A stretch of DNA of 64,000 bases from Streptomyces sclerotialus (GTDB taxonomy: Bacteria; Actinomycetota; Actinomycetes; Streptomycetales; Streptomycetaceae). How positions within the stretch are numbered: position 1 is the stretch's first letter; the number at the start of each line of letters is the position of its first letter. The notes beneath the pieces were generated by a model. It saw only the letters and a program-made list of their open reading frames with translations, ran no database searches and was not told where the DNA came from. A program made the translations under genes and the position numbers. This document shows, one piece after another, positions 6,528 through 42,100 of the stretch. Location of the stretch: contig NZ_JBFOHP010000002.1 in assembly GCF_040907265.1 (NCBI RefSeq), positions 1,426,001 through 1,490,000 of the forward strand, in the 5' to 3' direction.

Positions 6528-6533
6528 CGCCCG

Positions 6534-6576
6534 GCCGGCGAGGGGCCGGAGACTTCCCGCTCCGGCCCCCGCCGGC
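6534..6576 (+). terminator. terminator-like hairpin after copA
   Basis: A long GC stem (GGGGCCGGAG paired with CTCCGGCCCC, extended by GCCGGC arms with one bulge) begins six bases after the copA stop. There is no U-tract, as is common here. Confidence 0.6.
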
Positions 6577-6638
6577 TCCGGCAGGTCATGCCCGGTACGG
6601 GCGGACGATCCGGCACGTTCCGATGAGATGAGGCGTCA

Positions 6639-6920: not shown

Positions 6921-7004
6921 GGCCTCGTACGGTCACCGGGCGCACAAGCGTCGTACGATGTGCCACGGCCATGTGGCGGCGTCATGCCGCGGAAGGGGGA
7001 CAGC

Positions 7005-7367: not shown

Positions 7368-7370
7368 CCG

Positions 7371-16085: not shown

Positions 16086-16170
16086 CCTGTCCCGTTCTCC
16101 TGAATCGGCTGGACCGTTCAACGAGCCTGGCAGACGGAACGGGAAAGGTCTGCGGTAAACGGCGGCAGGT

Positions 16171-20545: not shown

Positions 20546-20546
<1 letters not shown>
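19893..20546 (-). CDS. mycothiol-dependent maleylpyruvate isomerase-family (DinB-like) protein
   Basis: A 217-residue four-helix DinB/MDMPI-type protein: TACPGWTVRDVLAHCGAALV near residue 40 gives the first metal histidine, and LGEWVHAGDVREAL near 125 gives the second. The acidic ligand is shifted compared with common family members (EWVH rather than ExWxH). Relatives use mycothiol as cofactor or transfer it, as LmbV does in lincomycin synthesis. It is the last gene of the methyl-cycle operon, and its ATG overlaps the ahcY stop by one base. It may process a thiol adduct; its presence beside a PIG-L enzyme recalls the lincomycin sulfur pathway. Confidence 0.65.
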
Positions 20547-22804
<2,258 letters not shown>

Positions 22805-22808
<4 letters not shown>

Positions 22809-25800
22809 GCCCGCCTCCCGGCGTTGAAGTAGCCCGCCTGGGGGTGGTGGACGACGAGGGCGTCGGTGGACTGTTCGGGGTGGAGCTGGAATTCCTCGGA
22901 GAGGACGACGCCGATGCGCTCCGGCCGCAGCAGGTCGGCGATCTTTGCGCGGTCCGCCAGGTCCGGGCAGGCCGGATAGCCCAGGGAGTAGCGGCAGCCT
23001 TGGTATTCGGTGCGCAGCATTCCCTCCAGCGATTCCGGCTCGTGGGTGGCGATGCCCAGTTCGGTGCGGACGCGGGCGTGCCAGTACTCGGCGAGGGACT
23101 CGGCGAGCTGGACGGACAGGCCGTGCAGCTCCAGGTAGTCACGGTAGGAGTCGGCCGCGAAGAGCCTGGTGGTCTCCTCGCCGATCTTCGAGCCGACGGT
23201 GACGACCTGAAGACCGACCACATCGGTCTCGCCGGACTCCTCCGGGCGGAAGAAGTCCGCGAGGCACAGGCGGCGGCCGCGGCGCTGCCGGGGGAAGGTG
23301 AAACGGGTGCGCTCGGCACCGTGCTCGTCCAGGATGACCAGGTCGTCGCCCTTGGAGTAGCAGGGGAAGTAGCCGTGCACGACGGCCGCTTGGAGCAGGT
23401 TCTGTGTGCGCAGCCGGCCCAGCCACATCCGCAGCCGCGGCCGCCCGTCGGTCGCGATCTGTTCCTGCTTCAGGCCCCACTGGCCCTTGAAGAGCGCGCC
23501 TTCGTCCAGCCAGGAGGCGTAGTCGGCGAGCTGGATGCCCTTGACCACGCGGGTGCCCCAGAACGGCGGGGTCGGGACCGGGTTGTCGGTGGCCACATCG
23601 GAGCGGCCGCCGGTGTCCTGGGGCTCTTCGAGTGCCGTCCGCCGGTGCGGCACCCGGCGCTGCTTCAGCTCCGGCAGGCTCGCCCCGGGCACGCCCCGCT
23701 TGACCGCGATCAGGGCATCCATCAGGCGCAGGCCCTCGAAGGCGTCGCGGGCGTAGCGGACCTCACCCTCGTAGATCTCGTGCAGGTCCTGCTCGACATA
23801 CGCGCGGGTCAGCGCGGCGCCGCCGAGGATGACGGGGAAGTCGGCCGCCAGCTTGCGCTGGTTGAGCTCCTCCAGGTTCTCCTTCATGATCACCGTGGAC
23901 TTCACCAGCAGCCCCGACATCCCGATCACGTCGGCCTTGTGCTCCTCGGCGGCCTCCAGGATCGCCGAGACCGGCTGCTTGATACCGAGGTTGACCACGG
24001 TGTAGCCGTTGTTGGACAGGATGATGTCCACAAGGTTCTTGCCGATGTCATGGACATCACCGCGGACGGTGGCCAGCACGATGGTGCCCTTGCCCTCATC
24101 GCCCTCCACCTTCTCCATGTGCGGCTCCAGATAGGCCACCGCACTCTTCATCACCTCGGCGGACTGCAGCACGAACGGCAGCTGCATCTGACCGGAGCCG
24201 AACAGGTCCCCGACCACCTTCATGCCCGCCAGCAGCGTGTCATTGACGATGTCCAGCGCCGGACGCTCGGCCAGCGCCGCATCCAGGTCGGCCTCCAGGC
24301 CGTTCTTCTCACCGTCGATGATGCGCCGCTGCAGCCGCTCCTCCAGCGGCAGCGCCGCCAGCTCCTCGGCCGCCCCGGCCTTCAGCGACTTCGCCGTCGC
24401 CCCCTCGAAGAGGGCCATCAGCTTCTGCAGCGGGTCATACCCCTCGGACCGCCGGTCGTAGATCAGATCCAGGGCGACCTGGACCTGCTCCTCCTCCAGC
24501 CGCGCGATCGGCAAAATCTTCGACGCATGCACGATCGCCGAATCCAGCCCCGCCTTGACACACTCGTCCAGGAAGACGGAGTTCAGCACGATGCGCGCGG
24601 CCGGGTTCAGCCCGAAGGAGATGTTCGACAGACCCAGCGTGGTCTGCACCTCCGGATGGCGCCGCTTCAACTCCCGGATCGCCTCGATGGTGGCGACCCC
24701 GTCCTTACGGGACTCCTCCTGACCGGTGCAGATGGTGAAGGTCAGGGTGTCGATGAGGATGTCGGACTCGCGGATGCCCCAGTTGCCGGTCAGATCGGCG
24801 ATGATCCGCTCGGCCACGGCCACCTTGTGCTCGGGGGTACGGGCCTGGCCCTCCTCATCGATGGTCAGCGCGATCAGCGCCGCACCGTGCTCCTTCGCCA
24901 GCGCGGTGACCTTCGCAAAACGCGAGTCGGGCCCGTCACCGTCCTCGTAGTTCACCGAGTTGATGACCGCACGCCCGCCCAGCTTCTCCAGCCCCGCCTG
25001 GATGACAGGCACCTCGGTGGAGTCCAGCACGATAGGAAGCGTGGAGGCGGTGGCGAACCGCCCCGCCAGCTCGGTCATGTCCGCCACGCCGTCCCGGCCC
25101 ACATAGTCCACGCACAGATCCAGCATGTGCGCGCCCTCGCGGATCTGATCCCGGGCCATCTCCACACAGTCATCCCACCGCCCCTCCAGCATCGCGGTGC
25201 GGAACTTCTTGGAACCGTTGGCATTGGTGCGCTCCCCGATCGCCAGGTAGGAGGTGTCCTGGCGGAAGGGCACGGTCTGGTACAGGGAGGCCGCACCCGG
25301 CTCCGGACGCGGCCGGCGCTCGGTGGGGGCGGTGCCGCGCACCCGCTCGACGACCTGGCGCAGGTGCTCAGGGGTGGTGCCGCAGCAGCCGCCCACCAGG
25401 GACAGCCCGTACTCGGCGACGAAGGTCTCCTGCGCATCGGCCAGCTCGGTCGCGGTGAGCGGGTAGTGGGCGCCGTCCTTGCCCAGCACCGGCAGGCCCG
25501 CGTTGGGCATGCAGGAGATCGGGACGCGGGAGTGGCGGGCCAGATAGCGCAGGTGCTCACTCATCTCCGCCGGGCCGGTGGCACAGTTCAGGCCGATCAT
25601 GTCGATGCCCAGCGGCTCCAGCGCGGTCAGCGCCGCACCGATCTCCGAACCCAGCAGCATCGTGCCGGTCGTCTCCACCGTCACCGAGCAGATGATGGGC
25701 AGGTTCGTGCCGGTGGCCTCCAGCGCGCGGCGGGCCCCCAGCACCGCGGCCTTGGTCTGCAGCAGGTCCTGGGTGGTCTCCACCAGCAGCGCGTCAGCGC

Positions 25801-26272
25801 CCCCGGCGATCATTCCCTCGGCGTTCTGCTGGTAGGCGTCGCGCAGGGTGGTGTAGGGGGCGTGGCCCAGCGTGGGCAGCTTGGTGCCCGGGCCCATCGA
25901 GCCCAGCACCCACCGCTGCTGCCCGGTCTTCTCGGTGAACTCGTCGGCCACCTCGCGGGCGATCCGCGCCCCGGCCTCCGACAGCTCGTACACCCGCTCG
26001 GGGATGTCGTACTCCCCCAGCGCCGCATGGTTGGCGCCGAAGGTGTTGGTCTCCACGCAGTCCACACCGACCGCGAAGTACTCCTCGTGCACCGAGCGCA
26101 CGATGTCCGGGCGGGTGAGGTTCAGGATCTCGTTGCAGCCCTCCAGCTGCTGGAAGTCATCCAGGCTGGGGTCCTGGGCCTGGAGCATGGTGCCCATGGC
26201 TCCGTCGGCGACCACGACGCGTGAGGCGAGGGCCTGGCGCAGTTCCTCGGCCCGTTGCGGGGTGGTGGTCAC
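22805..26272 (-). CDS. metH: cobalamin-dependent methionine synthase
   Basis: A 1155-residue multidomain enzyme that methylates homocysteine to methionine. In order: the homocysteine-binding barrel with zinc ligands (NCATG, then [10 protein letters not shown]), the methyl-THF pterin domain ([13 protein letters not shown]), the B12 cap and binding domain with the base-off histidine in [12 protein letters not shown], and the C-terminal SAM-activation domain ([14 protein letters not shown], then [10 protein letters not shown]). All domains are intact. GTG was chosen because it overlaps the upstream stop as GTGA. It supports the high methyl demand of this operon and needs cobalamin. Confidence 0.95.
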
Positions 26273-27252
26273 GTCAGCTCCCTCAGGTGGGGCAGGATGC
26301 GGGCGGGTACGGCGAAGCCGTACGCGGTGCGGAGCCGGGTCAGGAGCGGGTCGCGGTAGAGGCGGTACTCCTGGGTGCCGATGTAGTCGAGAGCCGTGGC
26401 GGCGATGGCGCAGCCCAGGCGGGCGGCGTCGGCGAGGGGAACGCCCCAGGTCACCGCGGCCACGAAGCCGGCCCGGAAGGCGTCGCCGACTCCGGTCGGG
26501 TCGACGACGCCGTCGACCGGCACGGCCGGGACCACGACCGGCGAGTGGTCCTCGCTCTGGAGGCGTACGCCGCCCTCTCCCAGGGTGGTGACCCAGCAGC
26601 CCACGCGGGCGCGGATCTGTTCGGCGGTCCATCCGGAGCGTTCCTGCAGCAGGGCCGCTTCGTACTCGTTGCTGAACAGCCAGCGGGCGCCTTCGACGAG
26701 CTGCCGGACCTCGGCGCGGTTCAGCCTGGCGAGCTGTTGCGAGGGGTCGGCGGCGAAGGGGATGTCGAGCTGCCGGCAGGCGGCCGTGTGGCGGAGCATC
26801 GCCTGCGGGTCGTCGGGGGAGATGACGACCAGGGCGAGGCGGCCGACCCGTGCGAGCACGTCGCACAGGTCGATGGTGCGGGCTTCGGCCATCGCTCCCG
26901 CGTAGAAGGTGGCGATCTGGTTCTGTCTGCGGTCGGTCGTGCAGACGAACCTGGCCGTGTGCAGGTCGGTGCTGATGTGTACGGAGTCGGTGTCGACCCC
27001 GTGTTCCTTGAGGTGGACGCGGTACGGCTCGAAGTCGGTGCCCGCTGCGCCGACCAGGACGGGGCGCTGTCCGAGCAGGCCCAGTCCGTAGCAGATGTTG
27101 GCTGCCACTCCCCCGCGGCGTATGTCGAGCCGGTCGGCGAGGAAGGACAGTGAGACCCGGTCCAGTTGCCCCGCGATGAGCTGATCGGTGAAACTTCCCG
27201 GGAAGGTCAGCAGATGGTCGGTGGCTATGGAACCGGTCACGACTGTCCGCAC
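26269..27252 (-). CDS. PfkB-family adenosine kinase-like enzyme
   Basis: A 327-residue ribokinase-fold sugar kinase. The N-terminal GSIATDHLLTFPG and GGVAANICYGLGLLG segments and the C-terminal catalytic DPTGVGDAFRAGF motif (anion hole and catalytic Asp) are intact. Lying between metK and metH-metF-ahcY, it most likely phosphorylates the adenosine released by AhcY, which pulls that reversible reaction forward. Actinomycete adenosine kinases are of this family. The GTG is 38 bases after the metK stop. Another sugar substrate cannot be excluded from sequence alone. Confidence 0.85.
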   Translation of the reverse strand: MRTVVTGSIATDHLLTFPGSFTDQLIAGQLDRVSLSFLADRLDIRRGGVAANICYGLGLLGQRPVLVGAAGTDFEPYRVHLKEHGVDTDSVHISTDLHTARFVCTTDRRQNQIATFYAGAMAEARTIDLCDVLARVGRLALVVISPDDPQAMLRHTAACRQLDIPFAADPSQQLARLNRAEVRQLVEGARWLFSNEYEAALLQERSGWTAEQIRARVGCWVTTLGEGGVRLQSEDHSPVVVPAVPVDGVVDPTGVGDAFRAGFVAAVTWGVPLADAARLGCAIAATALDYIGTQEYRLYRDPLLTRLRTAYGFAVPARILPHLRELT

Positions 27253-27290: not shown

Positions 27291-28511
27291 TTACTGGCAG
27301 CCCGCCGCGGTGCGCAGCTTTGTGGCGCGGTCGGTGCGCTCCCAGGTGAACTCGGGGAGTTCGCGGCCGAAGTGGCCGTACGCGGCGGTCCGGGCGTAGA
27401 TCGGGCGGAGCAGGTCGAGGTCACGGATGATCGCGGCGGGGCGGAGGTCGAAGACCTCGCTGATGGCTTCCTCGATCCGTGCCGGGTCGACGGTGGCGGT
27501 GCCGAAGGTCTCCACGAACAGACCGACCGGCTCGGCCTTGCCGATGGCGTAGGCGACCTGGACCTCGCAGCGGGCGGCGAGGCCGGCCGCGACGACGTTC
27601 TTGGCGACCCAGCGCATGGCGTAGGCGGCGGAGCGGTCGACCTTGGACGGGTCCTTGCCGGAGAAGGCGCCGCCGCCGTGCCGGGCCATGCCGCCGTACG
27701 TATCGATGATGATCTTGCGGCCGGTCAGGCCCGCGTCCCCCATCGGGCCGCCGATCTCGAAGCGGCCTGTGGGGTTGACCAGCAGGCGGTACCCCTCCGT
27801 CTCCAGCTTGATGCCGGCCTTGGCGAGGGCCGCCAGCTCCGGCTCGACGACGTGTTCGCGGATGTCGGGCGCGAGGAGGCCGTCGATGCTGACGTCCGAG
27901 GCGTGCTGGGAGGAGACGACCACGGTGTCGAGCCGTACGGCCCGGTCGCCGTCGTACTCGATGGTGACCTGGGTCTTGCCGTCGGGCCGCAGGTACGGGA
28001 CGGTCCCGTCCCTGCGGACGTCGGTGAGGCGGGCGGCGAGGCGGTGCGCGAGAGTGATCGGCAGCGGCATCAGTTCGGGCGTGTCGTCGCAGGCGTAACC
28101 GAACATCAGCCCCTGGTCGCCGGCGCCCTGCCGGTCGAGTTCGTCGCTCGTGCCAGGTCCCTTGCCGACGCGCTGCTCGTACGCGGTGTCCACGCCCTGG
28201 GCGATGTCGGGCGACTGGGCCCCGATGGAGACCGACACGCCGCAGGAGGCCCCGTCGAAGCCCTTGGCCGACGAGTCGTAGCCGATGGCGAGGACGGTGT
28301 CCCGGACGAGCTGGGCGATGGGTGCGTAGGCCGTGGTGGTGACCTCGCCGGCCACGTGCACCTGGCCGGTGGTGATCAAGGTCTCGACGGCGACGCGGGA
28401 CGAGGGGTCCTCCTTCAGGAGCGCGTCGAGAAGGGAGTCGCTGATCCGGTCGGCGATCTTGTCGGGGTGTCCCTCGGTCACCGATTCCGAAGTGAAGAGG
28501 CGCAGGCTCAT
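27291..28511 (-). CDS. metK: S-adenosylmethionine synthetase
   Basis: A 406-residue enzyme making SAM from methionine and ATP. Signatures are [20 protein letters not shown] at the N-terminus, the [14 protein letters not shown] methionine/ATP loop and the phosphate-binding [19 protein letters not shown]. It ends with the usual FTWER-containing tail. The ATG is two bases from the ACP stop, so it is in the same transcript as the carrier protein genes. It is probably a cluster-dedicated copy supplying the two methyltransferases. Confidence 0.95.
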
Positions 28512-28512
28512 G

Positions 28513-28767
28513 TCAGCTCACCCGGGCCGCGAAGAAGTGCCGCTCGATGGCGTCCAGGGTGCGGATCGAGTCGACCTCCAGGGTGTCCATGTCGATGGAG
28601 CGGCCGCTCACCTGCTCCAGGAGGAAGACGAACTCCACGAAGGACAGCGAGTCGATGAGGCGGTTCTCGATGAGGTCGAGGTCACCGGCGATGTCCTCGC
28701 GGTCCGGGTGGCGCTTGACGATCCACGCCTTGACCTGGTCGATTCCGTCGGCGATGGGGCTGGTCAT
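28513..28767 (-). CDS. discrete acyl/aminoacyl carrier protein
   Basis: An 84-residue four-helix carrier protein with the phosphopantetheine attachment Ser40 in [17 protein letters not shown]. The DSL form is the standard ACP motif. It follows AAGGAGT at good spacing and lies beside a holo-ACP synthase and a SerRS-like amino acid:[carrier protein] ligase, the arrangement seen where free carrier proteins are loaded with amino acids without an adenylation domain. It is therefore the likely platform for the starter amino acid and its oxygenation. Confidence 0.88.
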
Positions 28768-28786
28768 GGGGTTACTCCTTAATGTT

Positions 28787-29212
28787 TCACGAGTTTCGGT
28801 GTTCGGTGAGGATGGGCGCGGCCACGGCGACCGCGTAGTCGACGTCGTGGCTGATGCTCACCGTGATCTGCGCGATGCCGGAGGCGGCTGCCATCCGGCC
28901 GGCCGCGCCGCGCAGGTCGACCAGGGGCCAGCCGCCGTCGGCGCGCTGCACCACGATGTCCAGCCAGGGCAGGAAACGGTTGCGGACCCGTAAGGTCTTG
29001 AAGGCGGCTTCCTTGGCGGCGATGCGTCCGCAGAGGCTGAGCACGTCCAGCCCGGTGGAGGTGCGGCAGTCGGCCAGCTCGCTGGGGACGAGCATGCGGG
29101 TGAAGAAGTCCTCGCCGTGCTCGTCGAGGAGGCGCCGGACACGGGTGACGGACACGATGTCCATGCCGAGATGTGCCCAGCCCGGGCCACTGGGGGCGGG
29201 TTGGGCCGGCAC
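28787..29212 (-). CDS. AcpS-type 4'-phosphopantetheinyl transferase
   Basis: A 141-residue holo-ACP synthase-type enzyme. The magnesium-binding Asp lies in LGMDIVSVTRVRRLL and the second signature in GRIAAKEAAFKTL. The in-frame ATG inside the DIV motif would remove the N-terminal strand, so the GTG at 29212, two bases after the ligase stop, was chosen although its ribosome binding site is weak. It probably activates the small ACP encoded next to it, while the Sfp-type enzyme at 55.6-56.3 kb serves the PKS proteins. Confidence 0.85.
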   Translation of the reverse strand: MPAQPAPSGPGWAHLGMDIVSVTRVRRLLDEHGEDFFTRMLVPSELADCRTSTGLDVLSLCGRIAAKEAAFKTLRVRNRFLPWLDIVVQRADGGWPLVDLRGAAGRMAAASGIAQITVSISHDVDYAVAVAAPILTEHRNS

Positions 29213-29213
29213 G

Positions 29214-30080
29214 TCAGAGCACCGACCTCGCCCGCACGACCGCGTCGGCCGCCGCGTCCCAGTCGCCGTACCGGCGGGTCAGTGCCGACAGCCAGCGTTC
29301 CAGCCCGAAGGCCACACAGCTGGTGAAGGCCGGTCCCCCGCCGTCTGCGAGCGTGATGTCGCAGCGGTCACCGAAGAAGTTGCGGTGGGTGTTGACGGAC
29401 GCGATGGCGAGGTCCTCGAAGAGGAATTCGTGCTTGACGGGCACGAGGCGCTGCAGCACGGCCTTGGAACTGCCCTTGTCGTAGAAGGGGTCGCACGCCG
29501 CTTCCTTGCGCAGCGGCAGGTCGAGCGCCTCGGCGAACGCGGTGATCCGGTCACCGAAGGTGGTGAGGTGCTGCTCGGCGTGTTCCTGGCCACCCAGTGC
29601 GACGATCTCCCGCATACGGAAGCCGAGTTGGCGGCGCAGCCCTTCGTACCGCTCTTCCTTGCGGAAGCACCAGCCGACGACGGTCACCAGGGTGTCGGCC
29701 GCCAGCTGCCGGCCCTCGTGGCTGAGGTAGACCCCGTAACAGGAGGCCGAGGGCAGCCCGAGCGAGGCCGGCTGCAGGGCGTCGCAGGGAAAGCAGCCGG
29801 TCTCCTGACAGAGCCCGGAGCCGCCCTGGGCGCTGTCCAGGTTGAGCGGGGAGACCACCACGGCCTGGTGGGGGAAGTTCTCGTAGTAGTCGAGGCGGGC
29901 CAGGTCCTGGGTGGGCAGGAGCGGAGGCGCCGTCATGGAGCCGGCCCCCGCGGCGTGGCCCCAGCTCTCGAAGGTGTCGTCGAGCAGCCGCAGCAGTGCG
30001 GTGCCCTCCGGGCCCAGGGTGGGCAGTCCGGCCCTGTGGTCGGTGGGTGGTGGGGTGCGGACTTCGGTGGGTGTGGACAT
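29214..30080 (-). CDS. SerRS-like amino acid:[carrier protein] ligase
   Basis: A 288-residue class II aminoacyl-tRNA synthetase catalytic core without a tRNA-binding arm. Motif 2 is FRKEERYEGLRRQLGFRMRE (residues ~139-158) and motif 3 is SCVAFGLERWLSAL (~254-267). Cys114, Glu158 and Cys255 match the spacing of the zinc site in atypical SerRS and in the amino acid:[carrier protein] ligases, which adenylate glycine or alanine and transfer it to a carrier protein. The ACP and holo-ACP synthase genes follow immediately. The amino acid cannot be read reliably, but small residues are the family norm. Confidence 0.85.
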   Translation of the reverse strand: MSTPTEVRTPPPTDHRAGLPTLGPEGTALLRLLDDTFESWGHAAGAGSMTAPPLLPTQDLARLDYYENFPHQAVVVSPLNLDSAQGGSGLCQETGCFPCDALQPASLGLPSASCYGVYLSHEGRQLAADTLVTVVGWCFRKEERYEGLRRQLGFRMREIVALGGQEHAEQHLTTFGDRITAFAEALDLPLRKEAACDPFYDKGSSKAVLQRLVPVKHEFLFEDLAIASVNTHRNFFGDRCDITLADGGGPAFTSCVAFGLERWLSALTRRYGDWDAAADAVVRARSVL

Positions 30081-30132
30081 GCGTACCTCACTTGGGGCGT
30101 AGAACGCGGTGGCGACCGGACGGCGGTCCGGG

Positions 30133-31023
30133 TCAGATGACGGGCAGCACGTCGTCCGTGAAGATCCCGGTCTTCAGGAAGAACGCCAGTGGCTTGCGGA
30201 CCGACTTTCGCTCGAGGGCGCGGCGGCGGTCGTCGGCGAGCAGGGCGTTGCGCAGCGCGAGCGGGTCGGCGACGCCGGCGTCGCGGTAGACGTGCGGGTT
30301 GTAGAGCGAGTTGATGCTGAAGACGACGTACCGCTTGAGGTACGCCTCCACCTCGGCGTGCCGCTCCTCGCTGATGGTCTCGCGCATGCGGGTGTGCAGC
30401 AGGGAGACCAGTTCGCGCCCGAAGGCGATGTGGCGGGACTCGTCCTGGTGGTGCAGCCGGTTGACCTGCCGGATCGTGTCGCACAGCGACGCGTCCTGCG
30501 CCATGTGCATGTTGTAGAAGTCCACGAGCTCTTCGAAGAACAGGATCCGGGCGAAGACCAGGAAGTTCTCCACCTCGGGCTCCCAGTCGGAGGTGGCCCG
30601 CATCGCCGTGGAGGGGTAGATCTTGTCGCCGTAGCGGCGGCAGAACTCGGCGAAGAACCACATGTGCTCGTTCTCCTCACCGATGAAGTGGTGGAAGAAG
30701 TCCGAGGGGATCTCGAATCCCGGCATGTGGATGCGGTTGACGACCTCGATGAGCAGTTCACGGATGCCGTGCACGTTGAGGCTGTAGAAGTTGATGCTCT
30801 CCCACTTGGACAGCCGGCGCAGGGTCTCCTCGCCGAGTGTGTCGAAGTGCGGGGTGCCGTACGGGGTGAGCAGCTCGGGGCTCATCCACATCCGGTCCTC
30901 GTCGAGCCGGTCGGGCCAGTCGAACTGCTGGTACGGGTTGTAGTAGTCCTCGATGGACTTGGTCGAGAGCCGTTCCAGGACCTCTTGGAAGCGGTCGGTG
31001 ATGGGCAGGGCCGGGGCGGCCAT
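30133..31023 (-). CDS. AurF-type diiron N-oxygenase
   Basis: A 296-residue ferritin-like diiron protein. All seven iron ligands of the AurF/CmlI family can be placed: Glu89, Glu117 and His120 (EENEH), Glu164 or 165 (FFEELVDFYNMH), and His191, Glu195 and His198 in HHQDESRH. Family members convert amines to hydroxylamines, nitroso or nitro groups, and CmlI acts on carrier-bound substrates. Beside the aminoacyl-ACP genes, oxidation of an ACP-bound amino group is the natural inference. The ATG follows GGAGGG. Confidence 0.85.
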   Translation of the reverse strand: MAAPALPITDRFQEVLERLSTKSIEDYYNPYQQFDWPDRLDEDRMWMSPELLTPYGTPHFDTLGEETLRRLSKWESINFYSLNVHGIRELLIEVVNRIHMPGFEIPSDFFHHFIGEENEHMWFFAEFCRRYGDKIYPSTAMRATSDWEPEVENFLVFARILFFEELVDFYNMHMAQDASLCDTIRQVNRLHHQDESRHIAFGRELVSLLHTRMRETISEERHAEVEAYLKRYVVFSINSLYNPHVYRDAGVADPLALRNALLADDRRRALERKSVRKPLAFFLKTGIFTDDVLPVI

Positions 31024-31093
31024 GGTCGTCCCTCCAGTGGTGGGGTCCGGTGTGACGTGATCCGGTGCGACGTGGTCCGGTGTGCCGGGCGGG

Positions 31094-32161
31094 TCAGGGA
31101 CGGGCCTCGTAGACCGCGTTGACGGGCGTCTCGGTGGCGCGGCGCCAGCGGGAGAAGCCACCGGCCTTGGCGATCCGCCGGAAGGCCGTCTCGCCGGAGT
31201 GGTTGCCGAGGGCGTACGGGCCGCGCTGGGCGACCGCGACCGGCAGGCACATCACGGCGGACAAGCTCATGAACATCCGGGCGGCGGGCGTGCCGTGCGC
31301 GGTGACGTCGTCGGCGGAGGCGTTGGTCTCCACCAGCATCCACGTGCCGTCCGGCTTCAGCGTGCCGCGGACGTGCGCCGCGGCTCCTTCCGGGTCGCCC
31401 ATGTCGTGCAGGCAGTTGAAGAAGGTCACCAGGTCGTAGTCGCGGCCCGGGTAGTCGTCGGCCGAGGCGGTGTCGAAGACCACTCGGCCGCTCAGCCCCG
31501 CGTCGTCGGCGAGCTGGCGGGCGATGCTGATCGCCTCTTCGGAGTAGTCGTAGCCGTGCACGGTGGCCTCGGGGAACGCCTTGGCGATGAGCAGCGTGGT
31601 GTGTCCGACGCCGCAGCCGACGTCGGCGACCCGGCCGCCGTTGCGCAGCTTGTCCGTCACCCCGTCGAGCGCGGGCAGCCACTCGGGGATCAGCCGGTGC
31701 TCGTACGCTGGCTGGAAGAAGCTGCCCATGCCGGTGTCCAGCGCCGGGTCGTGCTCGGCCCAGCCGACGCCCTCGCCGGTGCGGTACGCGTCCACGAGCA
31801 GGTCCTCGGTCGCGTACAGGGCCTTGAGCGCGGTGAAGAAGCCGGCCGTGTACGTGACCGCGGCGCGGTCGGCGAGGACCGGGGCGTGTGCGGCGGGCAG
31901 GGTGTAGCGGTCGGAGCTGGGGTGGCGCTCGACGTAGTCGGCGCTGAGCTGGGCGTGCAGCCATTCCTCGGCGTAGCGCGGGCTGATGCCGGTGCGCTCG
32001 GCCAGCTCCTCGGGGGTGAGCGGGCCGTGCTCGGCCAGCGCCCGGTACAGCCCCAGGCGCTCGCCGAGGGCGACGGTCAGGCCGCGTACGGCGGCGGCCG
32101 CGTCGGTGATGACGCGCTGGTGGAACTCTTCGGTGGTGACACCTTGCAGGACGGCGTTCAT
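31094..32161 (-). CDS. SAM-dependent methyltransferase with N-terminal winged helix
   Basis: A 355-residue enzyme. Residues ~20-95 form a winged-helix dimerisation-like domain (LGLYRALAEHGPLTPEELAERTGISPRYAEEWL), and the C-terminal Rossmann domain has the SAM motif VADVGCGVGHTTLLIAKAFP near residue 175 and YDLVTFFNCLHDMGD at the catalytic strand. This build is shared with many natural-product O- and N-methyltransferases. Its start overlaps the next gene's stop as ATGA. It probably acts on the oxygenated amino-acyl unit or the finished chain; regiochemistry is not predictable. Confidence 0.8.
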   Translation of the reverse strand: MNAVLQGVTTEEFHQRVITDAAAAVRGLTVALGERLGLYRALAEHGPLTPEELAERTGISPRYAEEWLHAQLSADYVERHPSSDRYTLPAAHAPVLADRAAVTYTAGFFTALKALYATEDLLVDAYRTGEGVGWAEHDPALDTGMGSFFQPAYEHRLIPEWLPALDGVTDKLRNGGRVADVGCGVGHTTLLIAKAFPEATVHGYDYSEEAISIARQLADDAGLSGRVVFDTASADDYPGRDYDLVTFFNCLHDMGDPEGAAAHVRGTLKPDGTWMLVETNASADDVTAHGTPAARMFMSLSAVMCLPVAVAQRGPYALGNHSGETAFRRIAKAGGFSRWRRATETPVNAVYEARP

Positions 32162-33024
32162 GATCTGGGCTCCTCAGCCATGTGCTGCGCTCCTCGCCGG
32201 TTCGCGGATCGCAGGTCGCAGGTGAACAGGAAGGACCGGGGTACGCGGGGCACGCTGCGCGGCGGCACCGGGTAGGGCCAGCGGCCGAAGTCGGCGCCCT
32301 CCTCACCGGGCTGCCTGACCTCGCGCGGCGCCCAGCCGGTGTCCAGCAGCAGCTGCTCGGGCTCCTCGGTGCCGAACAGCCAGGGGTTGCCGTCGTCGGC
32401 CAGGGCCTTCAGGAACGGCCGGGACAGCGGGTTCTCCAGCGCGGCCCGGCTGATGACGTCGCCGGCCAGGACGGAGTCCGGGGCGCTGACGTCGGCGAGG
32501 GTCGCGAGCAGGGTGCGTACGGCGTCCTCGGGGAGGAAGAAGAGCAGGCCCTCGACGACCCACAGGGTGGGCCGCTCGCTCTGCCAGCCGGCTTCCTTCA
32601 GCGCGCCGGTCCATTCCCCGGTGAGGTCGACGGCGACGGGGTGCCGGGTACGGCCGGCCGGCTGCGGTTCGTCGGCGAGCATCCGCGCCTTGGCGTCCAG
32701 CAGGGCCGGCCGGTCGAGCTCGTACACCGTGACGCCGTCCGGCCAGGGCAGCCGGTAGAAGCGGGTGTCCATCCCGGCGGCGATGAACACGACCTGGCGG
32801 ATGCCGCCCTCGGCGACGGTCCGTGTGACGGCCTGGTCGAGGTACTGGGTACGGATGGCCAGGAAGGGCACCGTGCCGGCGCCCGCGTACCGTTCGAGCA
32901 GCTCGAATCCGGTGTCGGCGGCGACGGTGCGTGCGTAGGAGTCGTTGAACAGCCGGTCGGGGCGCTCGGATTCGAGGGCCCGGGCGGCGGCGGTCCACTG
33001 TGCGGTGCGGGATACGGCCTCCAC
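32158..33024 (-). CDS. LCMT/TIGR00027-type SAM methyltransferase
   Basis: A 288-residue methyltransferase of the leucine carboxyl methyltransferase-like family common in actinomycete polyketide clusters. Signatures are RTAQWTAAARALESERPDRLF at the N-terminus, FLAIRTQYLD, the SAM loop VVFIAAGMDTRFYRL and WVVEGLLFFLPEDAV. Members methylate oxygen, often hydroxyls or carboxylates. The GTG at 33024 was selected for its GAAGGAAGGA ribosome binding site. It is coupled to the following methyltransferase, so two successive methylations are likely. Confidence 0.8.
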   Translation of the reverse strand: MEAVSRTAQWTAAARALESERPDRLFNDSYARTVAADTGFELLERYAGAGTVPFLAIRTQYLDQAVTRTVAEGGIRQVVFIAAGMDTRFYRLPWPDGVTVYELDRPALLDAKARMLADEPQPAGRTRHPVAVDLTGEWTGALKEAGWQSERPTLWVVEGLLFFLPEDAVRTLLATLADVSAPDSVLAGDVISRAALENPLSRPFLKALADDGNPWLFGTEEPEQLLLDTGWAPREVRQPGEEGADFGRWPYPVPPRSVPRVPRSFLFTCDLRSANRRGAQHMAEEPRS

Positions 33025-33116: not shown

Positions 33117-33614
33117 TCAGCCGCGCACGCAGGGCACCGGGTCCTCCGCCGCCGTCTTCGACGGGGGCTGGGCGGCGGAGCGGCGCCGGAAGATGCTGTG
33201 CAGGACCATGCTGAACACGACCGTCCCGTCTTCGGCCACCAGCGAGCACTTGGGCTGCACGATGCCGGTGGCGGGACTGCCGAGGGACGGGCGGGAGCCG
33301 AGGATCTCCAGCCGGGCGGTGAGGACGTCCCCCGGCCGTACGGGCCGGACGAAGCGGACCTCGTCGATGCCGGGCGAGCCGAGCCCGTCACTGGAGGCGA
33401 GCAGGCCGTCCACGTAGCACCGCATGAACATCGCGGCGGTGTGGAACCCACTGGCGATCAGCCCGCCGAACGGGCTGCGCGCGGCGGCCTCCCGGTCGGT
33501 GTGGAACGGCTGCGGATCGAAGCGCGCGGCGAACTCCAGCACCTCCTCCTCGGTCACGGTGACCGTCCCCAACTCGTGAACGTCACCAGCGCGGAAGTCC
33601 TCGAAGTAACGCAT
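33117..33614 (-). CDS. MaoC-like hot-dog dehydratase
   Basis: A 165-residue single hot-dog protein starting MRYFEDFRAGD. It has the R-hydratase-type segment FDPQPFHTDREAAARSPFGGLIASG, which supplies the catalytic Asp/His pair, followed by the substrate-tunnel strand. Relatives hydrate or dehydrate 2-enoyl/3-hydroxyacyl thioesters. As none of the PKS modules has a ketoreductase, its substrate may be the modified starter on the free ACP. It lies directly downstream of the PLP enzyme gene. Confidence 0.8.
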   Translation of the reverse strand: MRYFEDFRAGDVHELGTVTVTEEEVLEFAARFDPQPFHTDREAAARSPFGGLIASGFHTAAMFMRCYVDGLLASSDGLGSPGIDEVRFVRPVRPGDVLTARLEILGSRPSLGSPATGIVQPKCSLVAEDGTVVFSMVLHSIFRRRSAAQPPSKTAAEDPVPCVRG

Positions 33615-33688: not shown

Positions 33689-34939
33689 TCAATCCAAATC
33701 TATGGATTCAGAAAGAGCTGCCGACGACCCCGCGCCCGCGGGGAGCGCCTGCTCGACGTCGTTCCACAGGTCTTCGGGGTGCTCGATCCCCACGGCCATC
33801 CGCACCATCCCGGCCCCCACCCCCGCCGCCCGCAGCGCCCGGTCGTCCAGCTCCCGGTGGGAGGTGCTGGCCGGGTGGGTCACCAGCGTCTCCACGCCGC
33901 CCAGCGACAGGGCGAGCTGCGCGACCCGCAGCCGCTCGGCGAAGGCGCGGCCGGCGTCCCGCCCGCCGGCCAGCTCGAAGGAGACCATTCCGCCGAAGCC
34001 GGAGAGGAACCGGCGGGCACGCTCGTGGGAGGGGTGCGTGACCAGACCGGGCCAGTAGACCCGCTCCACCTCCGGGTGAAGCTCCAGCCGGGCGGCGAGG
34101 AAGGCCGCGTTGCGGCAGTGCTGACGCATGCGCAGCGGCAGCGTCTGGATGCCGCGCAGGGTGAGCCAGGCGGCGAACGGGTCGGCCGTGGCGCCGAGTT
34201 CGACGGCGCGCCGCCAGACCCGCTCGTACAGGTCCGGGTCGGCGAAGACAGCCGCTCCCCCGATCACGTCCGAGTGCCCGCCCAGGTACTTGGTCGTGGA
34301 GTGGACCACGACATCCGCGCCGAACGCGATCGGACGGCACAGCGCGGGCGACGCGAGGGAGTTGTCGACCATGCTCACGACCCCGGCCCGCCCGGCCACG
34401 CTCAACAGGCCTGCCAGGTCGGGAACTTCCCCGGTCGGGTTCGCCAGTGTCTCCAGCACCAGAAGCCGGGTGGCCGGGCGCAGGAGCGCCGCCAGCTCCC
34501 CCGCGTCGTCGCCGGACATCCGTTCCACCTCGATGCCGAACCGCTCGGCGAGGTCGGACAGCACCGCGTACGTACCGCCGTACAGGCAGCTCTGCGCGAT
34601 CACATGGTCGCCCGGGCGCAGCAGAGCCAGCAAGGTGCTGCTGATCGCCCCCATCCCGGACGCGGCCGCCAGCGCCCGGGAACCGCCTTCGAGCCCGGCG
34701 AGGACGCGTTCCAGCGTGCGTACGGTGGGGTTGCCGCGCCTGCTGTAGACGAAGTCCCCGTCGGGTGCGGCCATCGCCGCCGCGAGCGCGTCGGCACTGT
34801 CGTACGCGAACGCCGACGACCTCACCATCGGCGTACTCAGCGGTCTCGCACCGCCCGGGACGGCATCCGCCGCCGCGGCCGTCACATGGACCGCGCGGGT
34901 CTCCAGGTGCAGTGCTCCGAGGTCTCGGTCCTCCGCCAT
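33689..34939 (-). CDS. transsulfuration-type PLP enzyme (methionine gamma-lyase/cystathionine synthase-like)
   Basis: A 416-residue fold-type I enzyme of the Cys/Met metabolism family. It shows the YSRRGNPTVRTLERVLAGLEGG segment, the AQSCLYGGTYAVL tyrosine region and the PLP lysine in VVVHSTTKYLGGHSDV. Members make or cleave C-S bonds (cystathionine synthases and lyases, methionine gamma-lyase). Beside a methyl cycle that turns over homocysteine, and with a cysteine-using NRPS module downstream, it could route sulfur to cysteine or cleave methionine. The ATG follows AAGGGG. It is the first gene of the 15-kb operon. Confidence 0.8.
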   Translation of the reverse strand: MAEDRDLGALHLETRAVHVTAAAADAVPGGARPLSTPMVRSSAFAYDSADALAAAMAAPDGDFVYSRRGNPTVRTLERVLAGLEGGSRALAAASGMGAISSTLLALLRPGDHVIAQSCLYGGTYAVLSDLAERFGIEVERMSGDDAGELAALLRPATRLLVLETLANPTGEVPDLAGLLSVAGRAGVVSMVDNSLASPALCRPIAFGADVVVHSTTKYLGGHSDVIGGAAVFADPDLYERVWRRAVELGATADPFAAWLTLRGIQTLPLRMRQHCRNAAFLAARLELHPEVERVYWPGLVTHPSHERARRFLSGFGGMVSFELAGGRDAGRAFAERLRVAQLALSLGGVETLVTHPASTSHRELDDRALRAAGVGAGMVRMAVGIEHPEDLWNDVEQALPAGAGSSAALSESIDLD

Positions 34940-35054: not shown

Positions 35055-36491
35055 TTACGCGACGACCTTCTCGCCCGCCGGCGCACCGCTCTGCTGCGCC
35101 TCGGCCCGGGGCGCACGGCCGCGCATGAACACCAGCGTGAGCAGGGCACCCACGGCCGCGACGCCCGCGGCGCCGAGGAAGGCGGAGCTGAACCCGTCGG
35201 TCAGCGCGGGCAGGTCGCCGAGCTTGCCGGCGCCCTGCGAGGTGGCGAGCGCGGTGAGGGCCGCCAGGCCGAGCGCGGAGCCCACCTGGTAGGTGGTGTT
35301 GACGATGCCGGAGGCCAGCCCCGCCTGCTCCTGCGGCACTCCGGACATCGCCGCCATCATGGCCGGGATGTACGCCAGCGACATGCCGAGCGCCGCGACC
35401 AGCGAGGCCGGCAGGACGTCGACGAGGAACGCGCCGGTCGGCTCGACGGCGGAGAGCCAGACCAGACCGGCCGCCAGGACGAACAGACCGCCGGCGATCA
35501 GTGGCTTGGGACCGAACCTGCCGAGCAGCTTGGCGGTGATCACCGTCATGAAGATCATGAGCAGCACGGTCATGGGCAGCAGCGCGGCACCACTGGCGAA
35601 CGCGCCGTAGCCGAGGACCTGCTGCAGGTACAGGTTGAGGAAGTACCACATCGGGATCCAGGCCGCGCCGAGCAGCATCATCGAGAGGTTCGAGGACGCC
35701 AGGCCCGGAGTGCGCCACACACCCAGCGGCATGAGCGGCGCCTTGACGGACCGCTGGATCACCAGGAACAGGCCGATCAGCACGGCGGCGCCGACGAGTC
35801 CGAGGACGGTCTCCGTCGTACCCCAGCCGACCTCCGGGGCACGGACCACGGCGAACACGGCGAGCGCCAGGCCGGCGGTGACGGCGACGGCGCCGAGCAG
35901 GTCCACGGAGCCCCGCTTCCCCGCGACGGCGGGCAGCAGCCCGGTGGCGGCGAGAGTGACGATGCCGATCGGGATGTAGATGATGAACACCCAGGGCCAG
36001 CTGGCCCATTCGGTGAAGACGCCGCCGAGGAAGACGCCCGCGGTGCCGCCGGCCGGGGCCGCGGCTCCGTAGAAGGCCATCGCCTTCCCCAGCTCCTTGG
36101 GGTTGTGCCCGAAGAGCATCATGAGCAGGGTCATGGAAGCGGGCGCGATCAGCGCGCCGCCGACGCCCTGCACCGCCCGGCCCAGGATCTCGGCCCACGC
36201 CGTGGAAGCGGCGGCCGCGACGACGGAGCCGGCGATCAGCACCGCCCAGCCGCTGACGAAGATCTTGCGGGCGCCCAGCAGGTCGGAGAGCCGGCCGCCG
36301 AGCAGCAGCAGGCCACCGAAGGCGATGACGTAGGCGTTGAACACCCACTGCAGGTCGCCCTGGGAGAACCCGAGATCGCGCTGCATCTCGGGCAGCGCCA
36401 CTCCGATGATGGACGTGTCCATGATGACCATGAACTGTGCGGCCGCGAGCACGGCAAGTGCCCACCAGCGCCGCGGATTGACGGCAGACAT
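35055..36491 (-). CDS. DHA2-type (14-TM) MFS exporter
   Basis: A 478-residue membrane protein. The N-terminal WWALAVLAAAQFMVIMDTSIIGVALPEM and the motif A loop LLGGRLSDLLGARKIF identify the DHA2 drug:proton antiporter family, with about 14 hydrophobic helices across the length. It should export a small molecule across the cytoplasmic membrane, most simply the product of this cluster. The ATG was chosen where the helical core begins, dropping a long upstream open stretch. Two G-tract palindromes like the copper operators lie 20-75 bases upstream, and a MarR gene is divergent. Confidence 0.9.
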   Translation of the reverse strand: MSAVNPRRWWALAVLAAAQFMVIMDTSIIGVALPEMQRDLGFSQGDLQWVFNAYVIAFGGLLLLGGRLSDLLGARKIFVSGWAVLIAGSVVAAAASTAWAEILGRAVQGVGGALIAPASMTLLMMLFGHNPKELGKAMAFYGAAAPAGGTAGVFLGGVFTEWASWPWVFIIYIPIGIVTLAATGLLPAVAGKRGSVDLLGAVAVTAGLALAVFAVVRAPEVGWGTTETVLGLVGAAVLIGLFLVIQRSVKAPLMPLGVWRTPGLASSNLSMMLLGAAWIPMWYFLNLYLQQVLGYGAFASGAALLPMTVLLMIFMTVITAKLLGRFGPKPLIAGGLFVLAAGLVWLSAVEPTGAFLVDVLPASLVAALGMSLAYIPAMMAAMSGVPQEQAGLASGIVNTTYQVGSALGLAALTALATSQGAGKLGDLPALTDGFSSAFLGAAGVAAVGALLTLVFMRGRAPRAEAQQSGAPAGEKVVA

Positions 36492-36511
36492 GGCGCCACC
36501 CTTTCTCGGTC

Positions 36512-38633: not shown

Positions 38634-39188
38634 TCAGTGCTCGGCGTGCCACTCGAAGGCCTTGAAGGGCTCGTCCACCGGCGCGTCGGTCATGCGGTTC
38701 GCGTAGGTGGAGATGGTGTAGACGCCCAGGCCCAGGACGACCTCGAGGGCATTGCGCCGGGTGTAGCCGGCGTCGAAGAACGCCTTCATCTTCTCGTCCG
38801 CCACATGCCCGTGGCCTTCCATCACGGCGAGGGTGAAGACGCGCATCGCCTCCAGCTTCTCGTCCTCCAGCGGCTTACGGGCGCGCAGGGCCTCGATGAG
38901 GGCCTCGTCGGCGTTGGTGCGCTTGAGCATCGCGCTGTGCATCGCCACGCAGTAGTGGCACTCCACCGTGGTGGCCATCGTGAGGATGAAGACCTCGCGC
39001 TCCAGCGGGCTCAGGGTGGTCTTGTTGAACAGCGCGTTGCCGTTCATGAAGCCTTCGAGCAGCTCCGGCGACTCCGCCATCAGAGCCACCGGCGCGGGCA
39101 CGAAACCGAAGCCCTTGGCGGTGTTCTCCATGATGGGACGGGCGCCTTCCGGAGCCGACGAGACGTCGTGGCGGGTGAACGTGGTCAT
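38634..39188 (-). CDS. AhpD/carboxymuconolactone decarboxylase-like protein
   Basis: A 184-residue all-helical protein with the redox pair and proton relay ECHYCVAMHSAML near residue 77, the AhpD signature CxxC-x3-H. Relatives are alkylhydroperoxidases or thiol oxidoreductases. Its ATG overlaps the stop of the NRPS-PKS gene as ATGA, so it is translated with the assembly line and probably serves the pathway, for example in thiol/disulfide or peroxide chemistry near the thiazoline product. Confidence 0.8.
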   Translation of the reverse strand: MTTFTRHDVSSAPEGARPIMENTAKGFGFVPAPVALMAESPELLEGFMNGNALFNKTTLSPLEREVFILTMATTVECHYCVAMHSAMLKRTNADEALIEALRARKPLEDEKLEAMRVFTLAVMEGHGHVADEKMKAFFDAGYTRRNALEVVLGLGVYTISTYANRMTDAPVDEPFKAFEWHAEH

Positions 39189-42100
39189 GAGGGGTTCCTC
39201 TCTGAACTGTGTGAGCCGGGCGACGGGTTCGCCGTCCGGTGGTCTGAAGTGCCCCAGGCGGCGCGCACCGTCGAGACGAGCGCGTCGAGCCGGCCGGGCC
39301 GGAGCAGGGAGTAGTGGTCGCCGACGAGGGTGTGGACGGTGACGTGTCCGGTGAGGTGGGCGGCCCACGCCGAGGTCACGGCCTCGGAGGCGCCCTCGCT
39401 CGCCCGGATCAGCACGGCCGGCGTCGCGTAGCTGCCCGGCCGGTGGCCGGCGAGCGCACGGGCGTTGGTGACGAACCGCGACAGGAGCGCGTCGATCGTC
39501 TCCTGGTCGGTGTCGCTGCCCAGCAGCCCACTGGCGCGCAGCCGTTCGGCGAGTACGGCGTCGGGATCGTCGGCCGCGCCGAGGTCGTACCCGGCCAACG
39601 GGTCCGGCGCGCCCGCCACTTGAGCGACGTCGCGGGCGAACCATTCGAGGAGCCGCGCGCGGGACGGGCTCTCGCCGTGTTCGTCGGGGTGCTCCATCAG
39701 GTCGACGGCGACGACCGGCGCCACGGCGAGTCCGCGCCCGGTCAGCCGCTCGGCCACCTCGAGCGCGAGTACGCCGCCCATCGACCAGCCGGCGATGCGC
39801 ACGTCGCGGCCGGTGACGTCCTCGGCGATGGCGTCGGCGTAGCGGTCGGCGAGCTCGGTGAGGCCTGCCGAGGCGGTCACCTCGTCCGGTACCTGCACCG
39901 CGGTCACCGGCACTCCGAGGGAGTGCGCCAGGTCGCGGTAGCAGACGATGTCGCCGCCCACGGGATGGATCCAGTACGACGTGGGGCCCGTCCCGCCGGT
40001 CGTCATCGGTACCAGCGTCGTACGCCTGCCCGCGCCGTCACGGACCGCCTCGGCCATGGCCGCGAGGGTGGGGTGCGTGAACAGTACGGAGAGCGGGACC
40101 GTCTTCCCCAGGTCGGCCCGGACGCGGGACATCAGCCGCACGCCGAGCAGGGAGTTCCCGCCGAGCGCGAAGAAGTCGTCGTCCCTGCCGAGCGGGGCGT
40201 TCGGCAGCAGTTGGGTCCACAGGCCGGCCAGGTACTTCTCGGTGTCGTCCCGCGGCGGCTCGGCTGCCGTGTGCCGTACCGACCGGCGGCAACGGTCCTC
40301 AAGGGCGCGCCGGTCCACCTTGCCGTTCGCGGTGATCGGCACGGCGTCCAGTGCGACGATCCGGCTCGGGACCATGTAGGCCGGGAGCTGGGTCCGCAGT
40401 GCGTCGGCGACCGCTTCGACGGTGGTCTCCGCCGCATCGAGCACCACGCCGGCCGCCAGGGTCTTGGCACCCATCGTTTCGCCGATGGCGGTGGCGACCG
40501 CGCCGCGGACCCCGGGCATCCGGCTCAGCGCGCTCTCGATCTCGCCCAGCTCGATCCGGTACCCCTGGATCTTCACCTGACCGTCCTCGCGGCCCAGGAA
40601 TTCGATGTTGCCGTCCGGGAGGTACCTGCCCAGGTCGCCGGTGCGGTAGAGACGGCCGTGCACCGTGTCCACGAAGCTCGCGGCGGTCTTCTCGGGGTCG
40701 GCCAGGTAACCGCGTGCGAGGCCGTCGCCGCCGATGTAGAGCTCACCCGGGACGCCCGTGGGCCGATGCCTCAGCCGGTCGTCCAGCACGTGGAAGCTCT
40801 GGTTCTCCAGCGGCTTCCCGTAGGGGATCGACGGCCACGCGGGGTCCACGGTGCCGATCGGGTAGGTGATGGACCAGATACCGGCCTCGGTGGCACCGCC
40901 CAGCGAATGGATCTCCGCTCCCGGCACGCACCGGCGTGCCCGGCCGGGCAGTTCGGTGGGTATCCAGTCGCCGCTGAGCATGACCGTGCGCAGGGACGGC
41001 AGGACCACCTCCTGGCCTTCCAGGTGGTCGACCATCATCTGGAGCAGGGCGGGGACCGAGTTCCAGACGGTGACACCGTGCCGCTGCACCAGCTCGTACC
41101 ACGCCTGCGGATCACGCAGCTCTTCCGGCCGTGGCAGCACCAGTGTGCCGCCTGCCGCCAGGACGCCGAAGACGTCGAAGACCGACAGGTCGAAGTGGAG
41201 CGCCGAGAGGCCGAGCACACGGTCCGTGGCCTCGATCGAGAACCGCCGGCCGACGTCCTGGAGGGTTCCCAGGGCGGCCCGGTGCTCGATCACCACGCCC
41301 TTGGGCTGACCGGTGGAACCGGAGGTGAAGATGACATAGGCGACGTTGCCGGGCTCGGCCACGGCGGCGGGCCGGCTGTCGGCGGGCGGTGTGCCGGTGG
41401 CCGCCGCCACGTCCAGCACCGGGAACGCGCTCAGCCAGGGATGTGCCGTGCGGGCCTCGTGGTCCACCACGGTCAGCGCGGCTCCCGACAGCTCCAGCGT
41501 CCGGCGCGCGCGGTCCGCCGGCAGGTCGGCGGCGATCGGCACGTACGCCTTGCCGGCCTTCAGTACCGCGAGCACGGCCACGATCTGCGCGGTGCCCTTG
41601 GGCAGCAGTACGGCGACGAGCTCTTCGGGGTCGGTCCCCGTGCCGGCCACGATGTGGCGGGCCAAGGTGTCGGCGCGCCGGTCGAGTTCGGCGTAGGTGA
41701 GGGTCTCCTCGCCGCACACGACGGCGAGCGCGTCGGGGGACTGCGCCGCGGCACGCTCGAAGCCGTGGTGGAGCAGGCCGGTGGGTCGCTCCGCCTCCGT
41801 GGCGTTGGCCTGTCGTCGCGGTGCGAGTTCCTGCTCGGCCAGCTCGACGTCGGGTGTGCGGTCCCAGGCGTGTGCGTCGTCGCAGAGCGTCTCGATGAGT
41901 CCGCGGTAGCTCGCGAACATGGCCGCGACCATTGTCTCGGGCAGCAGCTGTGACACGTAGTCCCAGTTCAGGCGCAGTCCGTCGGCGTCCTCGATCACCT
42001 GGTGGTCCAGCCAGACCTGAGGAGTGCGGATCATCGAGGAGACTTCCTCCCCGTCGCCCGTCAGCGCGACCAGGTGGTCGGTGAGCGCGCTGGACGCGGG

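Follow-up and report, generated by a model that had tools for sequence, protein, structure and literature searches.

What does Streptomyces sclerotialus assemble with a SerRS-like ligase, a free acyl carrier protein (ACP) and an AurF-type oxygenase encoded side by side? We addressed this question in a window of 64,000 nucleotides (G000:C2:1426001-1490000; genome size 8.28 Mb), in which the genes for these three proteins, for an AcpS-type enzyme and for two methyltransferases lie almost contiguously on the minus strand (positions 28513-33024). A first-pass annotation of this DNA had proposed that an amino acid is loaded onto the ACP by the ligase, N-oxygenated by the AurF-type protein and methylated, and that the product then primes a neighbouring polyketide synthase (PKS). 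All six genes were found as annotated, both as open reading frames (ORFs) and by family matches, and N-oxygenation and methylation on a carrier are well supported by the comparison of related loci. Loading, N-oxygenation and methylation thus held up as the work of one unit, while the role as a PKS starter did not. Judged from the same comparison, the gene block is common to many Streptomyces, and the module is old. What the sequences give directly is gene content, gene order, conservation and family matches; the pathway steps are what we infer from these. The six genes are the following.

28513-28767, minus strand: ACP of 84 amino acids, putative aminoacyl carrier (DSL serine site; no Pfam match)
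28787-29212, minus strand: AcpS-type phosphopantetheinyl transferase (PF01648, 38.1 bits)
29214-30080, minus strand: SerRS-like amino acid:carrier-protein ligase, probably for glycine (NF005479; profile match to and residues conserved with Bll0957, 3mey)
30133-31023, minus strand: AurF-type predicted diiron N-oxygenase, ATG start at 31023 set by homology (PF11583, 117.6 bits; fold model)
31094-32161, minus strand: MT1, S-adenosylmethionine (SAM)-dependent methyltransferase with an Rv2258c-like winged-helix domain (PF13847, 69 bits; PF21320, 50.8 bits)
32158-33024, minus strand: MT2, LCM/TIGR00027 methyltransferase, candidate nitronate or oxime O-methyltransferase (PF04072, 157.9 bits; TIGR00027, 210.5 bits, cut-off 93.55)

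For the comparison of gene neighbourhoods, we searched named genomes with a profile of the ligase and evaluated the best 80 of 346 confirmed loci. AurF proteins of the clade present in S. sclerotialus were encoded at 71 of these 80 loci, where they were accompanied by the ACP (70 loci), MT2 (68) and AcpS (64), and further by a MaoC-like hydratase (54), MT1 (48), a pyridoxal phosphate (PLP)-dependent enzyme (47) and the SAM synthetase MetK (45). In the counts over the 80 loci, matches below 45% identity were ignored for MetK, the major facilitator superfamily (MFS) exporter, AsnB, the short-chain dehydrogenase (SDR) and the GT4 glycosyltransferase; the floor was 33% in the comparisons of long regions and of PKS proteins and 26% in the distant regions considered below. 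ORF families were called crudely, with some antisense ORFs included, and Pfam was run on representatives of recurrent ORFs only. The distance matrices of ligase, AurF protein and MT2 correlated at 0.956-0.967 over the 67 loci possessing all three genes (L072, which carries two modules, was excluded), compared to permutation maxima of 0.28-0.32, and a shared species history can also raise such correlations. An AurF protein of this clade (E 1e-80 or better) is encoded by 27 of 150 genomes sampled across the genus, and nine, S. sclerotialus itself counted, encode one with at least 78% identity, which assigns them to the long type of cluster described below by identity alone; many strains could therefore be screened.

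The nine ligase loci without an AurF gene (L049, L050, L052, L055, L056, L057, L060, L063 and L065) possess the ACP gene and none of the other module genes probed. Eight of them share an ORF family whose member in L049 is a DAO-type FAD oxidoreductase, and perhaps these ligase-ACP pairs serve another carrier-bound amino acid oxidation. Small cassettes exist as well: in Streptomyces sp. HNM0574 (L072/L023) an AurF-ligase-AcpS-ACP-MT2 cassette directly adjoins a long-type cluster, and in L075, L076, L078, L080, L081 and L082 small AurF-ligase cassettes lie near a KAS III-like and/or a pre-ATP-grasp ORF family, both of which are present in L075, L078 and L082 (the family scan was made on L075 only).

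The ligase gave a profile match of 4.6e-35 to Bll0957 (3mey). It shares with the ligases of this family the class II synthetase core, a partner ACP and, in the alignment with Bll0957, the residues C131, E176 and C279 and those of motif 2, which we take to have the same roles in both; it differs from them in being shorter (288 amino acids) and in sitting in an AurF biosynthetic operon. Since its NF005479 score of 125.9 bits is far under the equivalog cut-off of 357 bits, it is not an ortholog of the ligase named by that model. Glycine is probably its substrate. In the first step of the pathway that we propose, the ligase would adenylate the amino acid, most likely glycine, and load it onto the ACP, which AcpS, going by its family, would have converted into the holo form.

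The AurF-type protein exceeds the cut-off of PF11583. Used as a single sequence it gave no direct match to solved AurF or CmlI up to E 0.001, and its profile, searched against solved chains up to E 1, likewise missed AurF and CmlI and found only an R2-like oxidase at 0.11; we therefore used a fold model, which matches CmlI and AurF clearly better than ribonucleotide reductases. With these arylamine N-oxygenases the protein shares the fold and six of the seven ligand columns (E117, H120, E164, H191, E195 and H198, in an alignment with classical AurF-family paralogs from this and other genomes), which we take to hold the iron ligands as in AurF and CmlI, judging by their spacing. It differs from them in its low identity (13-15% in the structure alignment) and in helix 1, where the column of the ligand glutamate, assigned by alignment only, is occupied by Ile87, with a carboxylate at position 89, two residues further on. 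This carboxylate is present in all 120 homologs listed (Glu in 115, Asp in five). The statement of the first-pass annotation that the oxygenase retains all its ligands thus applies to six columns and fails for the seventh. A more distant relative that adjoins a ligase gene (36-37% identity; L155 and L181 show one and the same gene) has the canonical helix-1 glutamate. Among 13 distant regions, the GIREL pattern was matched in eight, L181 holds the canonical glutamate, and L171, L172, L179 and L180 left the pattern unmatched; the ligand shift is therefore established for the closer homologs only. The displaced position makes it possible to test directly how much the metal site of AurF proteins can vary. 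In the second step, this enzyme would oxidise the ACP-bound amine to an oxime or nitronate.

The 13 distant AurF regions (36-62% identity) comprise 12 of the 20 hits below 65% identity in the 150-genome sample and one additional 36% relative. The ligase gene adjoins the AurF gene in all of them. A nitronate monooxygenase is encoded beside the pair in three (L169, L170 and L176; PF03060, 113.5 bits for L169), as would be expected if the product is a glycine nitronate. Matches to adenylation (A) and thioesterase (TE) domains occur in L171, L172, L179 and L180, with ketosynthase (KS) matches too in the latter two; L173 to L175 each show two KS matches and one A-domain match, and L177 shows A and KS matches. 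Pfam confirmed a protein with condensation (C), A, peptidyl carrier protein (PCP) and TE domains in L171, and the KS pair and the adenylation proteins in L174.

Carrier-bound glycine that is oxidised by a diiron oxygenase and then O-methylated has a precedent (He and Ryan, 2021, as cited in the excerpt of PMC9967187; the glycine-nitronate work is also cited in the excerpt of PMC12154687). A glycine-derived nitronate pathway is reported for enteromycin carboxamide (He and Ryan, 2021) and has been proposed for akazaoxime/A-76356 too. The genes studied here combine, as a glycine-nitronate module should, a predicted diiron oxygenase, a carrier protein and an O-methyltransferase or a nitronate-consuming partner, and they would share with the enteromycin pathway the carrier-bound glycine, the diiron oxygenase and the exit through O-methylation or nitronate consumption. 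In the akazaoxime pathway, as the excerpt describes it, glycine is held on a nonribosomal peptide synthetase (NRPS), whereas a SerRS-like ligase and a free ACP would be used here (PMC9967187); the excerpted descriptions of both pathways make no mention of mycothiol-type genes. The DOBA diazo pathway, in the part of its description at hand, likewise combines an AurF-like enzyme (Dob3) with a carrier protein and a PKS; it starts, however, from succinyl-hydrazinoacetate loaded by an adenylase, and Dob3 forms the diazo group. Among the titles and abstract openings listed from the open-licence PMC literature, we found no description of a SerRS-like ligase with an AurF protein, nor of mycothiol genes with a nitronate module. 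Ligase-type cassettes may already be covered by the enteromycin work of He and Ryan from 2021.

Since published carrier-bound glycine nitronates are O-methylated or denitrified, we judge a nitronate or oxime on ACP-bound glycine, followed by O-methylation through MT2, to be the likeliest course. MT2 is a member of the LCM family of carboxyl methyltransferases. As nitronates and carboxylates are isoelectronic, MT2 may be the methyltransferase for the nitronate or oxime oxygen, which it would methylate in the third step. We consider the succession of loading by the ligase, N-oxygenation by the AurF protein and O-methylation by MT2 likely.

The six genes are part of a conserved cluster of about 25 kb (approximately 12.2-36.9 kb of the window), with the MFS gene at one end and a GT4 gene for a second MshA-type protein at the other. 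Its gene order is the same in seven long regions from other Streptomyces (one of these, G010, is visible only to MT2). Additional DNA lies between C2 and the PIG-L gene in four of the seven (G003, G007, G008 and G009), and G003 gave no AsnB, PrpF or SDR match. The other genes of the cluster are as follows.

35055-36500, minus strand: MFS exporter, start approximate, ORF running to 36890 (PF07690, 165.5 bits; adjoins the PLP gene in most long-type loci)
33689-34939, minus strand: Cys/Met-metabolism PLP enzyme, methionine-gamma-lyase-like, candidate C-S lyase (PF01053, 405.5 bits)
33117-33614, minus strand: MaoC-like hydratase, start approximate (PF01575, 69.7 bits)
27291-28511, minus strand: MetK, SAM synthetase (family match)
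26269-27252, minus strand: PfkB kinase, probably adenosine kinase (PF00294, 142.1 bits)
22805-26272, minus strand: MetH, B12 methionine synthase, start approximate (family match)
21933-22808, minus strand: methylenetetrahydrofolate reductase (PF02219, 324.7 bits)
20546-22003, minus strand: S-adenosylhomocysteine hydrolase, start approximate (PF05221, 497.3 bits)
19896-20546, minus strand: C2, protein of the mycothiol-dependent maleylpyruvate isomerase (MDMPI) family, start approximate (TIGR03083, 87 bits, cut-off 50; PF11716, 37.3 bits, cut-off 24.2)
19130-19870, plus strand: PIG-L amidase/deacetylase, on the divergent strand (PF02585, 99 bits)
17145-18962, minus strand: AsnB-type glutamine-dependent amidotransferase, start approximate (TIGR01536, 299.7 bits, cut-off 267.1; MCRICG N-terminus)
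16171-17229, minus strand: PrpF-like isomerase, start approximate (PF04303, 46.6 bits)
15357-16121, minus strand: SDR (PF00106, 99.2 bits)
13728-15308, minus strand: MetRS-like protein without KMSKS (PF09334, 167.1 bits)
12180-13544, minus strand: second MshA-type glycosyltransferase (GT4), end of the conserved cluster (TIGR03449)

The window thus encodes a full SAM cycle, from MetK and the PfkB kinase through MetH and methylenetetrahydrofolate reductase to S-adenosylhomocysteine hydrolase, which would sustain the methylation steps; at the S. oceani and HNM0574 loci (L020 and L023) the kinase alone was found of this cycle. C2 is present in all seven long regions. With the count restricted to loci spanning 20.7 kb or more, the C2 gene accompanied that for MaoC at 27 of 31 loci (out of 54 MaoC loci in all) and was found at none of the 11 AurF loci without MaoC. 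A locus from Lentzea holds the genes for AurF, ligase, ACP, C2, MaoC, MT2, PIG-L and the PLP enzyme inside 6 kb. Searched with its profile against solved chains, C2 gave no match up to E 1; the closest solved chains of the PLP enzyme are methionine gamma-lyases.

The mycothiol link is the new part of our reading. In the plant synthesis of glucosinolates, glutathione adds to an electrophilic C=N bond. In lincomycin biosynthesis, sulfur comes from mycothiol: LmbV forms the adduct, LmbE cleaves it, LmbF carries out a PLP-dependent elimination and LmbG S-methylates the product. The cluster resembles the lincosamide system in uniting a mycothiol-transferase-type protein, a PIG-L-fold amidase, a PLP enzyme and a methyltransferase; it differs in that C2 is MDMPI-like, the PIG-L protein is nearer to LnmX, the PLP enzyme falls into the methionine gamma-lyase family, and no octose genes were seen in it. 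By analogy, C2 would join mycothiol to the N-oxygenated glycyl unit at the carbon of its activated C=N bond, the PIG-L protein would trim the conjugate to a cysteinyl conjugate, the PLP enzyme would free the thiol, and MT1 would methylate it. The outcome would be a thiohydroximate-like unit with an O-methyl and an S-methyl group, which AsnB may release as an amide; the mycothiol itself may come from the second MshA.

We place the chance that the mycothiol-type genes belong to one pathway with loading, N-oxygenation and O-methylation slightly above even. Sulfur capture itself, through to S-methylation by MT1, is a tentative proposal that we rate as possible and somewhat below even. The complete glucosinolate-like logic, in which an ACP-bound glycine nitronate is captured by mycothiol, processed by the PIG-L protein and the PLP C-S lyase and O- and S-methylated to a new class of thiohydroximates spread through Streptomyces, would have to be called doubtful.

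Several observations weigh against our reading. The displaced helix-1 ligand means that even diiron binding by the AurF protein is an assumption. The ligase family is listed with alanine and serine as well as glycine, and simple motif patterns, applied to loci some of which are partial, recovered the zinc-cysteine pattern of the ligase in 61 of 80 loci, the PLP lysine in 43 of 47 and the HPDD motif of PIG-L in 11 of 13. MT2 occurs in just one of the 13 distant regions, and C2 is missing from four of the 31 full-flank MaoC loci (L025, L051, L067 and L072). C2 keeps two invariant histidines, but the glutamate beside the second, a candidate zinc ligand, is not invariant (Thr in L061 and L064), and the genome holds 17 MDMPI_N and six PIG-L genes; C2 and PIG-L therefore need not act on mycothiol. 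The PIG-L protein, whose best solved relatives are diacetylchitobiose deacetylase and LnmX, is closer to these two and to BshB2 than to Mca/MshB, so its role may simply be that of a deacetylase. The PLP enzyme, of the methionine gamma-lyase type, is not from LmbF's family. Finally, we matched no known natural product to the cluster.

The second MshA and its neighbour allow a different explanation of the mycothiol-type genes. Together with PIG-L, they might build a mycothiol analogue, a glucosaminyl-inositol carrying an amino acid other than cysteine, to which the oxygenated glycyl unit would be attached. The cluster MshA scores well above the TIGR03449 equivalog cut-off (536.3 versus 462.5 bits), each of nine genomes out of nine has exactly two genes above it, the cluster copy and one other, and the paralog keeps K78, Y110, T134 and R154, which we take to be its inositol-phosphate residues. 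The MetRS-like gene adjoins the MshA paralog in all 10 regions where both are visible, and MshC is a published class I example of an enzyme that ligates Cys to glucosaminyl-inositol. The MetRS-like protein retains a HIGH-type motif, but KMSKS is absent, by eye, from 13 of 14 aligned cluster orthologs. Moreover, the loci L054, L058 and L066 (Lentzea) have PIG-L, C2 and AurF genes and no MshA or MetRS-like match within 10-kb flanks, and the genomes of L054 and L066 hold distant MetRS matches only (27-32%). We regard an analogue of this kind as unlikely. Still less probable is denitrification or detoxification, in which glycine would be turned into a nitronate for the sole purpose of setting free nitrite and glyoxylyl units while the mycothiol-type genes mop up leaked electrophile. 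Related modules do carry a nitronate monooxygenase, and MDMPI-type proteins and PIG-L-fold amidases also act in mycothiol detoxification. However, the L169 enzyme used as query found no match in the window or in long-type loci, and outside L169, L170 and L176 the sole match (27%) is in L077, some 8 kb away from the module; MT2, MT1 and usually the SAM cycle are kept instead.

The remaining alternative is that of the first-pass annotation, by which the oxygenated and methylated aminoacyl-ACP primes the PKS-NRPS at 39.2-55.6 kb (39185-55625), outside the conserved block and with some 2.3 kb between it and the MFS ORF. From Pfam matches and motifs, its proteins read, with AT for acyltransferase and DH for dehydratase, ACP-KS-AT-AT-DH-ACP, KS-AT-ACP and KS-AT-DH-ACP-C-A-PCP-TE. 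Because the first PKS opens with an N-terminal ACP and an ordinary extending Cys-KS that no loading domain precedes, it requires a starter from elsewhere. Nevertheless, no homolog of the window PKS proteins (at least 33% identity) was found on the MFS side of seven related regions, which reach 6.6-42 kb past the MFS gene (G007 6.6 kb, G008 7.2 kb, G003 13 kb, G005 20 kb, G006 24 kb, G002 28 kb and G001 42 kb; G009 and G010 end too near it to count). In G001, from S. ochraceiscleroticus, twelve genes on the MFS-side contig are 89-98% identical to ours and five on a second contig 84-97%, with the middle of the block outside both. Over the 80 loci, whose flanks extend about 3.5 kb past the MFS gene, PKS matches occurred in five (three without AurF, two of the small type) and at no long-type locus; in G003 and G005, fragments resembling PKS3 are at least 20 kb away from the opposite cluster end. 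We therefore rejected PKS priming at this locus on synteny and hold it to be highly improbable; by the same comparison, the neighbouring PKS-NRPS appears to form a cluster of its own, although a link particular to this strain is conceivable. As to ligase-ACP-AurF triplets beside PKS genes, for which the first-pass annotation had suggested mining genomes, linkage to the window PKS is not conserved, and some distant relatives (L173-L175) do lie near KS genes. Since they have AurF, ligase and ACP close to a pair of KS genes and to adenylation enzymes, these three loci are better candidates for a synthetase-primed chain than the window studied here, and such a chain may be made there.

If steps one to three hold, the module would represent a general NRPS-independent route by which amino acid building blocks are N-oxygenated on a free-standing carrier, one route with differing exits through O-methylation, a nitronate monooxygenase, an NRPS or a KS. 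Coupling to mycothiol, if real, would add a bacterial route of sulfur insertion resembling that of plant glucosinolates.

Two other roles for the MetRS-like protein were considered. As KMSKS is lost, a resistance copy of MetRS is thought unlikely; other MetRS-type matches in the genome are at C2:228489 (35%) and C2:4174744 (27%). N-N bond chemistry, which the excerpt of PMC2922099 links to MetRS-like proteins accompanied by a cupin and a lysine N-oxygenase, was rejected: neither domain was found among the conserved-cluster proteins scanned. A flavin oxygenase ORF with a weak Lys/Orn-oxygenase match lies outside the cluster at 57.5 kb. Elsewhere in the window, an Sfp-type phosphopantetheinyl transferase (55616-56494) sits beside the PKS-NRPS, a molybdopterin oxidoreductase is encoded at 60764-63685, and the region 4269-8276 holds genes for a heavy-metal P-type ATPase, a BlaI-type repressor and an M48/M56 peptidase.

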